In this document: positions 45,441 through 54,213 of the stretch, piece by piece
Layout: each line of letters starts with the position of its first letter
Numbering within the stretch: position 1 is the first letter of the stretch
Assembly (NCBI GenBank): GCA_944390575.1
Contig: CALXQJ010000011.1
Location: 1-64,000 of the forward strand
Direction of reading: 5' to 3'
DNA length: 64,000 nt
DNA from: an uncultured Spirochaetota bacterium
Lineage (GTDB): Bacteria > Spirochaetota > Brachyspiria > Brachyspirales > Brachyspiraceae
Notes under the pieces: generated by a model
The model's database searches: none
Told to the model about the DNA's origin: nothing
Seen by the model: only the letters and a program-made list of their open reading frames with translations
Translations under genes and position numbers: made by a program

Positions 45441-46967
45441 TTACTCAAATATAACTCTTGGCTTAGTATCAATAAAGTCTAAAGGGACATTATTAAGTTC
45501 TTTTAATTTACTAATCATAGCATCACGAATATCATTACCTGTCATAATAGCTTTTTTAGCATTAAGTCCTATAGCCTCTCCATTAGAATTCACATATCCA
45601 TCACCACCAAAATACATAAAGCTTGATAATATAACCTTATAGTCCTTATTAGCATCTATATCAACACCATTAAGCTTAGCATAAACTAAATGATTATTAT
45701 TTATACCAATTTCAAGTCCTCTAGATAATTGTAAAAAAGCACCTCTTCCTCTCTTTTGAGCCGATATAGAAAGAATATCTAAAATATCTTGTCCACTTAA
45801 AGTAAGAATTACAACCTCATTATCAAAAGGGAAAAATTCATTTTGAATATTACCAAGTGTTATATCACCACCATAAAGTTTAGTTCTTAAAGACCCTGAA
45901 TTAATTAAAGCAATATCAATATCATCATAAGAATCTAATAGCAAATCACAAGCAAAATTACCAAGTGCTGTAGAGTTAGAACGTATACCATCATGTTCTA
46001 AATCAAAAGGTAAAGTAGCAATACGTACATTAAACTCTTTATCAACTGTACCCTTCATCTCTTCAATAAACTTTAGCATATCTTCATCTTGTTTAATACT
46101 CTCATCCATCTCTACTAATTTATACTTTAAGCTACGTCTATCTATTTTCCCATTTTTTACATTAAAATTAATATTACCTAAATATCTACCATAAGATCCA
46201 GCCTGTACTATCATAGTATCTTTTACAAAAGTAGGTTCAAAAAGCTCTGTATGACTATGTCCACCAACAATAATATCAAACACATTAGGAAACTCAGAAG
46301 CAATTCTTTTATCTTCATCATAACCTATATGACTCAATAAAATAGTTATATCATTAGTTTTATTAAGAGGTGTATCAGACAATAACTTCTTTATAGATTC
46401 AACCTCCTCTACAAAAACTAAATCTTTTATATAATCTGGATTATAAACAGAATCTGTTGTAGTAAGCCCTATAACAGCAATATTAACTCCATTTATATTA
46501 GTAGTAATATAGGCTTTTGTATATAAGCTATTATCTTTATTTAAAATATTTGCAGAAATAGTTGGGAATTTTCTCTCTTTTAAAAGCTCATCAAAATTTT
46601 CTTTACCATAATCTACAAAATGATTACCAATAGTAACAACATCAACTCCTATCATATTCATAATATCAACCTCATCTAATCCCTTAAAAACTGTAGAGTA
46701 TATACTACCAGTAATAGTATCTCCAGCATGTAATATCAATATATTATCATTTGTAGATTTAAAATCTTTAATATAAGTAGCCCTACGTGCAGCACCATAT
46801 TTATAATTTGTTTGTGTTTTATCTGATGATACTATTAACTCTTCTTCATCCTTACCGTGAGTATCATTCATATGTATAATACTAATGTTTACAATATCAT
46901 TATTATTACTACAAGAGATAAAAACAAAAAATAAAAAAATTGATAATTGTTTAAAAATGTTTAACAT
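45441..46967 (-). CDS. 5'-nucleotidase/UshA-family lipoprotein
   Basis: A 508-residue lipoprotein with a lipobox (FISC, Cys about residue 19). The metallophosphatase domain has MNDTHG (about residue 33), LHAGDTITGSIYS, IGNHFVDYG (about 118) and GGHSHTELF (about 237), the metal-binding motifs of the UshA/CpdB family. The C-terminal nucleotidase domain (NSGSLRTKLYGGDITLG) binds substrate. It probably hydrolyses extracellular nucleotides for uptake. I chose ATG 46967 because GGAG lies 5 bases upstream and the leader starts there. Confidence 0.9.
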   Translation of the reverse strand: MLNIFKQLSIFLFFVFISCSNNNDIVNISIIHMNDTHGKDEEELIVSSDKTQTNYKYGAARRATYIKDFKSTNDNILILHAGDTITGSIYSTVFKGLDEVDIMNMIGVDVVTIGNHFVDYGKENFDELLKERKFPTISANILNKDNSLYTKAYITTNINGVNIAVIGLTTTDSVYNPDYIKDLVFVEEVESIKKLLSDTPLNKTNDITILLSHIGYDEDKRIASEFPNVFDIIVGGHSHTELFEPTFVKDTMIVQAGSYGRYLGNINFNVKNGKIDRRSLKYKLVEMDESIKQDEDMLKFIEEMKGTVDKEFNVRIATLPFDLEHDGIRSNSTALGNFACDLLLDSYDDIDIALINSGSLRTKLYGGDITLGNIQNEFFPFDNEVVILTLSGQDILDILSISAQKRGRGAFLQLSRGLEIGINNNHLVYAKLNGVDIDANKDYKVILSSFMYFGGDGYVNSNGEAIGLNAKKAIMTGNDIRDAMISKLKELNNVPLDFIDTKPRVIFE

Positions 46968-47001
46968 AAAAACTCCAAATAAATAATTAATAGATATAAA
47001 A

Positions 47002-47030
47002 AGTATATTATTATTAAAAATAAATATCAA
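47002..47030 (-). promoter_or_regulatory. Promoter for nucleotidase gene
   Basis: Minus strand TTGATA (47030-47025), 17 bases, TATACT (47007-47002). Confidence 0.65.
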
Positions 47031-50962: not shown

Positions 50963-51301
50963 TTATAAATTATTTTTTAATAACTCAATAATCTCTTCCT
51001 TAGTTAAAACCTTACCATAAGAAAGAACTTTATAATCTAAAGCCAAAGCAGGAGTACTCATAACCCCATAAGCAGTAATCATCTCAGGATCTTCTATCTT
51101 ACTTACTTCTAAGTCTAAATTAGCTTCTTTTATAGCTAAAACAGTATTATCATATAATTCAGTACAATTAGCACAACCTGTACCTAAAATTTTTACTCTT
51201 CCTTCTTTTACAACTTCACCCGAAGTTTTAGGAGAAGGTGCTCAGCCACAACCAGAGTTTGAATCTTCACTAAATAAGATTTTTTTTAATTTATCAAACA
51301 T
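50963..51301 (-). CDS. Thioredoxin-like selenoprotein candidate
   Basis: A 112-residue frame if the in-frame TGA at 51244-51242 is read as selenocysteine (residue 20). The start has AAGGAG about 10 bases upstream. The N-terminus is MFDKLKKILFSEDSNSGCG-U-APSP; Cys-rich N-terminal tails are usual in ars-linked thioredoxin_3 proteins. The main domain has KILGTGCANCTELY (CxxC, about residues 39-52), DLEVSKIEDPEMI and the cis-Pro segment YGVMSTPALALDYK, then SYGKVLTKEEIIELL. It is the last gene of the arsR operon. A hairpin with a GGGU loop lies 20 bases after the TGA. If TGA were a stop, the gene would be a useless 19-residue peptide. Confidence 0.8.
51201..51238 (-). promoter_or_regulatory. Candidate SECIS element (thioredoxin-like gene)
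   Basis: Reading down the minus strand from the TGA, CCTTCT (51238-51233) pairs with AGAAGG (51206-51201). Two further pairs lie in a 5x5 internal region, and AACTTC (51227-51222) pairs with GAAGTT (51217-51212) around the loop GGGT. The loop starts 20 bases after the TGA, as expected for a bacterial SECIS. Confidence 0.7.
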
Positions 51302-51373: not shown

Positions 51374-52390
51374 TTATATAAATAAAAAATAAAATATATT
51401 AAATAAATATCCTATAATAATAATTCCAATAGTTACTATCATCACAAATATAAGTAAAAGTTTAGTTTTCATCACTTTTTTAAGCATTATAATAGAAGGA
51501 AGAGAAAGTGCTGTAACCGACATCATAAAAGATAAAACAGTACCAATACCAGCTCCCTTATAATATAAACTCTCAGCAATAGGAATAACACCAAATATAT
51601 CAGCATAAATAGGAACACCAATAATAGAAGCTATTATTACAGAATACCAATTATTTTTTCCAAGAATAGATTCTATAAAATGTGATGGTATTACATTATG
51701 AATAAAAGCTCCTATTGCAACACCTATTATAATATATAGATATATCTTTTTTATAGTATCTAAAACTTGTTTTTTAGCATATAAAAGCCTCTCTTTTGTT
51801 GTTAAGCTAACTTCTTGTATACAACAATTATTAACTTGAATATTTTGAACATAATCTTCTAAATATCTCTCTAATCTTAATTTTCCAATAATACTACCCC
51901 CAACAACAGCAAGTACAATACCAACCAAAACATAACATATAGCAATCTTAAAACCAAATATACTTGTAAGTAGTATAAGAGAAGCCAAATCTACAAGAGG
52001 AGAAGATATTAAAAAAGAAAATGTCATAGATATAGGAATACCAGCACTTGTAAAACCTAAAAATAAAGGTATTGAAGAACAAGAACAAAAAGGTGTAACT
52101 GTACCTAATAATGCTGATAATATATTTGCAGTTATACCATTAAACTTAGATAAAATATTTCTCGCTCGCTCAGGAGGAAAAAATGACTGTATGTATGATA
52201 TAGCAAAAATAAGTATACAAAGAAGTATAAATATTTTAATAATATCATATATAAAAAATTGTAAAGCCCCTCTTAATACTTCATTTTCTATAAAATTAGA
52301 TAATATATTACCTATTATATTATTAAGCCATTTCATAGATAAAACTTGCTCTTCTAAAAAGACAAAAAATGATTTCACACTTTCTCCCAT
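51374..52390 (-). CDS. ArsP/YraQ-type permease (PF03773)
   Basis: A 338-residue membrane protein with about eight to ten helices. The family cysteine motif TPFCSCSSIPLFLG is at about residues 100-113, and IGVPIYADIFGVIPIAESL at about 251-269 is a second conserved loop. Related proteins include ArsP, which exports trivalent organoarsenicals, and YraQ permeases. Its place between the rhodanese and the thioredoxin-like gene in the ars operon supports an arsenic role. A Cys pair (NNCCIQ, about residue 186) in the cytoplasmic loop may bind metalloid. AGGAG lies 11 bases upstream of the ATG. Confidence 0.85.
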   Translation of the reverse strand: MGESVKSFFVFLEEQVLSMKWLNNIIGNILSNFIENEVLRGALQFFIYDIIKIFILLCILIFAISYIQSFFPPERARNILSKFNGITANILSALLGTVTPFCSCSSIPLFLGFTSAGIPISMTFSFLISSPLVDLASLILLTSIFGFKIAICYVLVGIVLAVVGGSIIGKLRLERYLEDYVQNIQVNNCCIQEVSLTTKERLLYAKKQVLDTIKKIYLYIIIGVAIGAFIHNVIPSHFIESILGKNNWYSVIIASIIGVPIYADIFGVIPIAESLYYKGAGIGTVLSFMMSVTALSLPSIIMLKKVMKTKLLLIFVMIVTIGIIIIGYLFNIFYFLFI

Positions 52391-52425: not shown

Positions 52426-52749
52426 TTAAATATTTTCAAGTCCTTGTTTAAGTTCTCTATGACCAGCACCAGATAAACTATTTAAGTTCTTAAATCCATT
52501 TTTTTTCATAAATTCGCTAACTGCGAAAGCTCTACCTCCACTTCCTCAGTAAAGTAGATACTCTACATCTCTATCAAGTTGTAATATCTCATTAGAAATA
52601 TCAGAAAGTGAAGTATCTATTAGTATACTACCATCTATATATCCTATCTCTTCTCTCTCCTTTGCAGAGCGAGTATCTAATAATTGTATTTTTTTACTTT
52701 TAAGAAGTTTTACAGCTTCTTCTAAACCTATTTTTTTTATTTCACTCAT
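52426..52749 (-). CDS. Rhodanese-like selenoprotein candidate
   Basis: A 107-residue single-domain rhodanese if TGA at 52548-52546 is read as selenocysteine (residue 68). The fold signature is clear: IGLEEAVKLLKSKKIQLLD, TRSAKEREEIGYIDGSILID, DVEYLLY-U-GSGGRAFAVS and the closing LNSLSGAGHRELKQGL. In ordinary rhodaneses the position after LLY is the catalytic Cys that opens the CRSGxR loop, so the TGA falls exactly on it. GGAG lies about 12 bases before the ATG. Read as a stop, the protein would lose its active site and last third. It lies 7 bases after acr3. Confidence 0.85.
52513..52527 (-). promoter_or_regulatory. Candidate SECIS element (rhodanese gene)
   Basis: Minus-strand TTCGC (52527-52523), loop AGTTA, GCGAA (52517-52513), a perfect 5-bp stem with G at the second loop position. 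The loop begins 23 bases after the TGA. The flanking bases pair poorly, so the stem is shorter than in the thioredoxin-like gene. Confidence 0.5.
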
Positions 52750-52756
52750 AATGTTT

Positions 52757-53827
52757 TTAAACTCCTTTTTGAAATTTATCTTTTGTTTTATTTGAAATAT
52801 TAACTAAAAAAAGCATAACAGGAACTTCAACTAATACTCCAACTATAGTAGCAAGTGTAGCACCAGAGTTTACTCCAAACAATGATATAGCAACAGCAAC
52901 AGCAAGTTCAAAAAAATTTGAAGCCCCTATCATAGCAGCAGGTGATGCTATATTATGTGGTAGTTTTAATATATATGCTATTATGTATGATAGTGCAAAT
53001 ATAATAAATGTTTGAAGTATTAATGGTATAGATATTAATATTATATGTAGAGGGTTTGATAATATAATATTTCCTTGAAATGAAAATAATAATACTAAAG
53101 TAAGCAATAAGCCTATTATTGTTATATTATCAAATTTATGTATGAATATGTTGCTAAAATACTCTACTCCATATTTCTTACAAACTACAATTCTTGTAAC
53201 AATGCCAAGTATAAGAGGTATTAATACAAACAAAATAATAGATAAAAACAAAGTAATCCAAGGCACAAATATATCAGATATTCCAAGTAAAAATTTTACT
53301 ATAGGAACAAATAAAAATAAAATAATAAGATCATTAGTAGCTACTTGCACTACTGTATATGAAGAATTTCCTTTAGTTAAAGCACTCCACACAAATACCA
53401 TAGCAGTACAAGGCGCAGTACCAAGTAATACAGCACCTATTAAATATTCCTTTGCCAAATTAGTAGGTATAATATTTTTAAATAAAAAATAAAAGAAAAA
53501 TGAAGAGATAAAAAACATACTAAAAGGTTTTACAAGCCAATTTATAATCCAAGTAAGATAAAGACCCTTTGGATTTTTGCTTATATCTCTAATACTTTCA
53601 AAATCTACACTCATCATCATAGGATATATCATAAGCCATATAAGTATAGCAATAGGTATAGATACATTAGCATATTCTAATCTACTTAAACTTAATGGTA
53701 TTATAGGTATATACTTAGAGATTAATACTCCCACTATCATACAAGCTACAACCCAAACACTCAAATACTTTTGAAAAAAATTAATAGAAGATTTTTCAGT
53801 AGAAACATTATTATCAGTATTTTTCAT
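52757..53827 (-). CDS. acr3: ACR3-family arsenite efflux transporter
   Basis: A 356-residue transporter with about ten membrane helices. It carries the ACR3 segment LGTAPCTAMVFVWSALTKGN (about residues 134-153), including the essential Cys, and the later PAAMIGASNFFELAVAVAIS. It exports arsenite driven by the proton gradient. It lies 11 bases after arsR and 7 bases before the rhodanese gene. GGAG precedes the ATG. ArsB and the ATPase ArsA are absent from the operon. Confidence 0.93.
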   Translation of the reverse strand: MKNTDNNVSTEKSSINFFQKYLSVWVVACMIVGVLISKYIPIIPLSLSRLEYANVSIPIAILIWLMIYPMMMSVDFESIRDISKNPKGLYLTWIINWLVKPFSMFFISSFFFYFLFKNIIPTNLAKEYLIGAVLLGTAPCTAMVFVWSALTKGNSSYTVVQVATNDLIILFLFVPIVKFLLGISDIFVPWITLFLSIILFVLIPLILGIVTRIVVCKKYGVEYFSNIFIHKFDNITIIGLLLTLVLLFSFQGNIILSNPLHIILISIPLILQTFIIFALSYIIAYILKLPHNIASPAAMIGASNFFELAVAVAISLFGVNSGATLATIVGVLVEVPVMLFLVNISNKTKDKFQKGV

Positions 53828-53838
53828 ATTAAAACTCC

Positions 53839-54150
53839 TTAATTACATTTTATATTATTACTTGTATAATTAATGTCTTTTGACAAATAGTAATTCAAAA
53901 TATCCTTTATATTCTCAATACTATCACAATTAAAGCTATAATAAGTCCATTTACCTTCTTTACGAGAATTTAATATATTAGCATCACAAAGTATTTTCAT
54001 ATGATGAGATAATGTAGACTGAACTATATTAAGCCTATCTAAAATCTCACAAGCACATATTTCTCCCCCCTTTATAATCTCTAATATTTGAAGTCTATTC
54101 TCATCAGCAAGTGCTTTAAAAATAAGAGTATTATCTTTATAATCTATCAT
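53839..54150 (-). CDS. arsR: ArsR-family arsenic-responsive repressor
   Basis: A 103-residue winged-helix repressor. The arsenite-sensing Cys pair is in GGEICACEILDRL (CxC, about residues 30-34), like ELCVCDL of classical ArsR. The DNA-recognition helix is VQSTLSHHMKIL, followed by the wing (NSRKEGKWTYYSFN). The C-terminal tail has an extra Cys. I chose ATG 54150 because GAGGTG lies 6 bases upstream; an earlier in-frame start at 54213 would fall within the promoter. Confidence 0.92.
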   Translation of the reverse strand: MIDYKDNTLIFKALADENRLQILEIIKGGEICACEILDRLNIVQSTLSHHMKILCDANILNSRKEGKWTYYSFNCDSIENIKDILNYYLSKDINYTSNNIKCN

Positions 54151-54175
54151 AAAAAACACCTCATATCTATAAACA

Positions 54176-54213
54176 TCGATATATAATATATAATACATAT
54201 CGAATATTGTCAA
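54176..54213 (-). promoter_or_regulatory. ars operon promoter and likely ArsR operator
   Basis: Minus strand TTGACA (54213-54208), 17 bases, TATATT (54190-54185). A perfect 7-bp inverted repeat, TCGATAT (54176-54182) and ATATCGA (54197-54203), lies across the -10 region, a suitable place for ArsR to block initiation. Confidence 0.65.

Follow-up and report, generated by a model that had tools for sequence, protein, structure and literature searches.

A putative selenocysteine-containing rhodanese encoded in an arsenic-resistance operon of a Brachyspira genome, next to a second predicted selenoprotein

The DNA stretch that we analyzed (the window; 64 kb in total) stems from a 2.0-Mb Brachyspira genome assembly that is 99.84% complete. 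Its minus strand carries a cluster of co-directional, closely spaced genes in the order arsR-acr3-rhodanese-arsP-trx, which unites an ArsR-type regulator with an arsenite efflux transporter and thus has the make-up of an ars operon. The third gene, here designated R1, encodes a rhodanese with an in-frame TGA codon at its catalytic position; its membership in an ars operon, which the initial annotation of this DNA had asserted, is borne out by this layout. The intergenic gaps from acr3 onward amount to 7, 35, and 72 nt. The features of the locus are as follows:

54185-54213, minus strand: promoter-like sequence TTGACA-17-TATATT upstream of arsR (a consensus match only)
53839-54213, minus strand: arsR/smtB-type repressor gene (the ATG at position 54150 is the more likely start)
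52757-53827, minus strand: acr3, arsenite efflux transporter (TIGR00832, 367.6 bits against a cut-off of 282.8)
52426-52749, minus strand: R1, putative rhodanese-domain selenoprotein gene (107 amino acids, Sec at residue 68, UGSGGR, a U-X4-R loop)
52546-52548, minus strand: in-frame TGA of R1, the predicted Sec codon (codon 68) at the catalytic Cys position
52513-52527, minus strand: putative bacterial SECIS hairpin of R1, TTCGC-AGTTA-GCGAA (loop 23 nt after the UGA)
51374-52390, minus strand: ArsP_1-family permease gene (PF03773; does not reach the cut-offs of the SaoE and SO_0444 models)
50963-51301, minus strand: putative ArsE/MTH895-family thioredoxin-like selenoprotein gene (112 amino acids; TIGR00412, PF13192)
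51242-51244, minus strand: in-frame TGA of the thioredoxin-like gene (Sec at residue 20, N-terminal SGCGU, a CGU motif)
51212-51227, minus strand: putative SECIS hairpin of the thioredoxin-like gene, AACTTC-GGGT-GAAGTT (loop 20 nt after the UGA)

The thioredoxin-like gene at the end of the operon had been overlooked in the initial annotation, as had the published Brachyspira thioredoxin selenoproteins to which it is related (PMC5330540); because of its own in-frame TGA, it is missing from the list of open reading frames. It combines a PF13192 domain with a Sec codon in a short N-terminal extension and a SECIS-like hairpin (local fold of -13.5 kcal/mol), the features of the Sec.2 type of these Brachyspira proteins. 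Ordinary ORF calling therefore misses this gene altogether, and it halts R1 at the TGA so that R1 appears as a truncated ORF of 67 residues. Elsewhere in the window, the minus-strand gene at 45441-47030 encodes an UshA-like 5'-nucleotidase that scores far below the cut-offs of the UshA-like (seleno)protein models and has no in-frame TGA.

The reading frame of R1 starts with an ATG at position 52749 and ends with a TAA at position 52426; the TGA at codon 68 is its single internal stop and its only lesion. The read-through translation runs ...DVEYLLY-U-GSGGRAFAVSEFMKKNGFKNLNSLSGAGHRELKQGLENI, just as the initial annotation had read it around the TGA (DVEYLLY-TGA-GSGGRAFAVS). The same source had described a normal rhodanese C-terminus downstream of the TGA, and the Pfam Rhodanese profile (PF00581) indeed spans the codon, matching residues 10-94 with an E-value of 1.2e-12 and 48.6 bits, compared with a gathering cut-off of 22.2. 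When R1 is aligned with the Cys-containing rhodaneses of Brachyspira, the TGA falls into the column of their invariant catalytic Cys (YLLY-U-GSGGR vs. YLLY-C-ASGGR), in agreement with the position originally claimed for it; all other Brachyspira homologues that we have seen carry Cys at this site. AlphaFold2 predicts a full rhodanese fold for the read-through protein (mean pLDDT 90.4), in which residue 68 belongs to the loop that leads from the strand formed by residues 63-67 to the helix formed by residues 72-83. The segment U68-GSGG-R73 has the length and the end points of the six-residue catalytic loop C/U-X4-R. The closest solved folds are those of the single-domain sulfurtransferases RDL2, TSTD1, GlpE, and Sud, and the rhodanese domains of CoA-persulfide reductases are structurally near as well.

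The initial annotation had pointed to a search for selA, selB, selC, and selD, whose absence would have spoken against Sec, and all four genes were found in this genome. The tRNA-Sec scores 60.5 bits against an Rfam cut-off of 47 and is recognized by ARAGORN as a tRNA-SeC with the anticodon TCA, SelB scores 277.9 bits against a cut-off of 242, and both genes are located on one contig (G000:C2) with selA between them. SelD was found with 354.6 bits; it is the Cys form of this enzyme (EGGCSAK). The GrdA and GrdB genes of the same genome contain UGA codons, and hence UGA-to-Sec decoding is in use in this organism. Within the 64-kb window itself, we detected neither a tRNA nor any match to an Rfam family.

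A hairpin with an AGTTA loop does follow the TGA of R1 as had been noted; the reported distance of 23 bases holds for the loop, not for the stem, which begins 18 nt after the TGA. The published bacterial SECIS model demands a G within the first two nucleotides of the loop, frequently with G or U as the next base, a loop of 3-9 nt, a stem of 4-16 bp, a distance of 16-37 nt from the UGA, and a minimum free energy of -7.5 kcal/mol or below (PMC13188914). With its 5-bp stem, the loop AGTTA and a spacing of 23 nt, the R1 hairpin agrees with that model in the place of its G, the length of its loop and stem, and its distance from the UGA, but its local energy of -4.4 to -5.2 kcal/mol is weaker than the -7.5 kcal/mol of the model. 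The minimum-energy fold of the 59-nt region (-11 kcal/mol) uses another hairpin, one that is not conserved in the paralogue R2 described below. Among 28 Cys-rhodanese sites, seven have any hairpin that passes, none of them better than -2.6 kcal/mol. Such a site would seldom arise by chance: we scanned all 1914 TGA triplets on both strands of the window, and 0.42% of these are followed by a SECIS-type hairpin at -4.4 kcal/mol or better; when open frames on both sides of the triplet are demanded in addition, exactly two TGAs remain in the 64 kb, that of R1 and that of the thioredoxin-like gene of the same operon. Since the SECIS elements of GrdA and of the Sec.1 thioredoxins do not fit this simple hairpin scan and are missed by it, the scan is not a complete detector.

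A second putative Sec-rhodanese gene, R2, that had escaped the initial annotation is present on another contig of the same genome:

G000:C17:24565-24876 (L004:6557-6877), minus strand: R2, putative Sec-rhodanese gene with the same TGA codon and the same hairpin as R1

The R2 protein is 58% identical to R1 and has its TGA at the same codon. R2 is a stand-alone gene with an endonuclease III gene beside it. In the hairpin stretch, R1 and R2 are exactly alike (TTC GCA GTT AGC GAA TTT ATG), whereas the nearest Cys homologues encode nearly the same residues with other codons (TTT GCT GTA TCG CAA TAT ATG). At degenerate codons for identical residues, R1 and R2 use the identical codon in six of six cases within this stretch, as opposed to 32 of 53 elsewhere. 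In a phylogenetic tree, R1 and R2 are found together, next to the Cys clade of B. pilosicoli; the R1/R2 pair with one very long-branched Geobacter sequence has a support of 89/86, which is not strong, and forcing R1 and R2 together incurs no likelihood cost. This tree position suggests, without proving it, that a single Cys-to-Sec change was followed by a duplication that gave rise to the two genes, so that a likely Cys-to-Sec change would have been caught here in one lineage. Among the matches listed in a search of 393 spirochaete genomes, there was no further TGA-containing rhodanese; a single scan of a contig collection for relatives of R1 yielded only a Cys homologue from B. pilosicoli besides distantly related rhodaneses, and none were found among plasmids, phages, and viral contigs. 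The Sec form of this rhodanese is represented by one species only, with two genes.

Ten other Brachyspira genomes contain a comparable operon in which arsR-acr3-arsP is followed by thioredoxin-like genes, some of which contain UGA. These comprise one form that mostly has Cys (CxxC motif) and the UGA-containing forms Sec.1 (FGU) and Sec.2 (GCGU), although we did not see all three of them in each genome. Santesmasses and co-workers described in 2017 a Brachyspira cluster of thioredoxin-like selenoproteins with three clustered genes per genome in a report that mentions neither rhodanese nor arsenic (PMC5330540). Since this cluster follows arsR-acr3-arsP in the ten genomes, we identify it as the tail of the ars operon, and these previously unexplained selenoproteins can now be assigned to an arsenic-resistance operon; as far as the literature shows, this placement seems to be new, although priority is not certain. 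In none of the ten operons is acr3 separated from arsP by a rhodanese gene, and those Brachyspira Cys rhodaneses that we examined are located elsewhere. A rhodanese is therefore not essential to such an operon. By comparison, the operon studied here has a rhodanese added and retains only one, Sec.2-like, thioredoxin.

Two genomes merit a brief remark. In the ars operon of genome G002, the first thioredoxin gene (L130:3619-3945) has a UGA in the motif SCG-U-GGSC where most of its relatives have CCCGGSC, followed by the hairpin CCTTC-AGTT-GAAGG, and apparently encodes a third Sec thioredoxin of that operon. The acr3 gene of genome G021 appears to be broken by several TAA codons, and this operon may be decaying; the assembly is fragmented and 86% complete.

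Sec-rhodaneses as such are known. The initial annotation noted correctly that they had been proposed before: predicted families of the COG0607 and COG2897 types are contained in PMC1088965 and PMC2398784, and PMC13188914 distinguishes forms 1-5, of which forms 2 and 4 (PF00581) have the motif UxxG. R1 shares with forms 2 and 4 the rhodanese domain, the Sec residue and, as UGSG, this motif; the likeness seen to MBM9537886 and MCY3690685 of these forms is that of the motif. The available sections of the three papers name no spirochaete and no arsenic-operon example for these forms, and R1 and R2 lie beside the Brachyspira Cys rhodaneses in the tree, which suggests a local Cys-to-Sec change. R1 falls short of the model for form 3 (CxU; NF041203, rhodanese_LYCAU) with 22.3 bits against a curated cut-off of 115. 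TsoB (NF045694) has a Sec-containing rhodanese domain as well, but in PMC13188914 it is listed as a rhodanese/DsbD fusion-like protein with two Sec residues (UxxxxU), whereas R1 is a single-domain protein with one; R1 did not match the TsoB model, and the ArsR protein of the window matches the NCBIfam ArsR-type regulator TsoR below its cut-off. With the published thioredoxin selenoproteins of Brachyspira, the operon shares a last gene of the same family and a Sec residue in an N-terminal extension (CGU), yet it has one such gene (Sec.2-like) along with the Sec-rhodanese instead of three (PMC5330540). It resembles ars operons with Acr3, ArsP, and an ArsE/MTH895-type thioredoxin in its ArsR, Acr3, ArsP_1 permease, and ArsE-family thioredoxin, and differs from them by its two Sec codons, the rhodanese between acr3 and arsP, and the lack of arsC. 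What seems to be new for Sec-rhodaneses, as far as the literature shows and with priority not certain, is their occurrence in Brachyspira in two copies, their apparently local origin, and the association of one copy with arsenic, in an ars operon beside a second selenoprotein gene.

From the identity of the genes, the Sec machinery, the UGA at the catalytic Cys codon of two genes, the SECIS-like hairpins, selection on the read-through portion, and the layout of the operon, we conclude that R1 very probably is a translated Sec-rhodanese that belongs to the ars operon. We infer its translation with Sec, its induction by arsenic through ArsR, and the chemical reaction that it would carry out. Decoding of the UGA as Sec would yield a single-domain rhodanese with the nucleophile U68 in the loop UGSGGR. 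Its selenolate might take up sulfane sulfur or become oxidized by a substrate, and could then be reset by thiols or by the thioredoxin-like selenoprotein of the operon; this chemistry would aid the detoxification of arsenicals ahead of their efflux via Acr3 and ArsP. Organoarsenicals are plausible substrates of the operon because the ArsP protein of Campylobacter exports trivalent organoarsenicals (PMC6205960). We propose such a role in sulfane-sulfur or thiol-redox chemistry tentatively, at somewhat short of even chances; its arsenic-specific part is deduced from the gene order only, and R2 stands alone. The presence of a Sec-rhodanese together with a second selenium protein in one ars operon suggests that the arsenic handling of these gut spirochaetes depends on selenium, and it would tie the two elements together at the level of a single operon with two Sec codons.

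The arsenate reductase ArsC is common, although not universal, in ars operons. In this genome, ArsC proteins of both the glutaredoxin type (PF03960) and the low-molecular-weight phosphatase type (PF01451) are absent, while control profiles matched. Sec decoding being accepted, R1 could be the missing arsenate (or arylarsonate) reductase: U68 would attack As(V), the thioredoxin-like selenoprotein would recycle the enzyme, and As(III) would leave the cell via Acr3 or ArsP. The absence of either type of ArsC makes this role attractive, as does the existence of eukaryotic rhodanese-fold arsenate reductases such as the plant enzyme HAC1, whose rhodanese domain has a CX4R catalytic loop of the same length as the U-X4-R loop of R1 (PMC9454679); the same operon also supplies a thiol-redox partner. 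HAC1 itself is a eukaryotic Cys enzyme, R1 a bacterial protein with a predicted Sec. However, the closest structures and sequences to R1 are sulfurtransferases and persulfide enzymes, and the ten other Brachyspira ars operons do without any rhodanese. We therefore regard a reductase function as possible but rather unlikely. Still a little more doubtful is the broader proposal that the Brachyspira ars operons constitute a selenium-dependent detoxification system in which UGA-encoded thioredoxins handle arsenicals and, in the species studied here, a rhodanese newly converted from Cys to Sec replaces ArsC as the arsenate or arylarsonate reductase.

Three explanations that dispense with Sec in R1 were considered and rejected. 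If the TGA were a true stop, R1 would be a pseudogene leaving a truncated 67-residue fragment, a reading in keeping with the ORF calling and with the existence of Cys homologues. Decay of this kind, which the initial annotation expected to show as other stops or frameshifts in close homologues, is not what we found: no homologue seen has a different stop at this site, and the paralogue retains the TGA. By the NG86 method, the comparison of R1 with R2 gives dN 0.364 and dS 0.992 before the TGA (ratio 0.37), dN 0.319 and dS 0.813 after it (ratio 0.39), and dN 0.410 and dS 1.242 beyond the hairpin (ratio 0.33). Since dN/dS is equally low on both sides of the TGA, a sign of equal purifying selection, R1 is not decaying; moreover, the 39-codon frame behind the TGA would stay open by chance in about 3% of cases at this base composition. 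Taken with the SECIS-like hairpin, the complete Sec machinery, and the lack of other lesions, these data make a pseudogene very improbable. Even less credible is the insertion of an amino acid other than Sec (e.g., Trp) at the TGA through general reassignment or near-cognate suppression, which would account for the open frame past the TGA; the UGA occupies a Cys and not a Trp position of rhodaneses, and tRNA-Sec(TCA), SelA, and SelB are present. A sequencing or assembly error in a TGT or TGC codon can practically be dismissed, for although a single base change would restore Cys, R1 and R2, which lie on separate contigs, would both have had to suffer it independently, and the two share a downstream hairpin that the Cys homologues lack.

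The preferred reading of R1 as a Sec-rhodanese leaves a hairpin of low stability as its candidate SECIS, and similar hairpins of the same loop class, just as weak, follow the UGA of the Brachyspira Sec-GPx genes. These have the sequences TTCTG-AGTTG-CAGAA, TCCTG-AGTTG-CAGGA, or TTCTGC-GTT-GCAGGA, with energies of -3.7 to -5.6 kcal/mol and a loop 22-23 nt after the UGA; no such hairpin is present in seven Cys-GPx genes of the genus. The codons of the Sec-rhodaneses that form the hairpin can be aligned with those of their Cys relatives that do not, and they illustrate by what route a SECIS element can emerge in a sequence that stays constrained by its coding function. Likewise, the Sec and Cys forms of GPx in Brachyspira represent a natural SECIS control inside one gene family; the GPx of the genome studied here is the Cys form.
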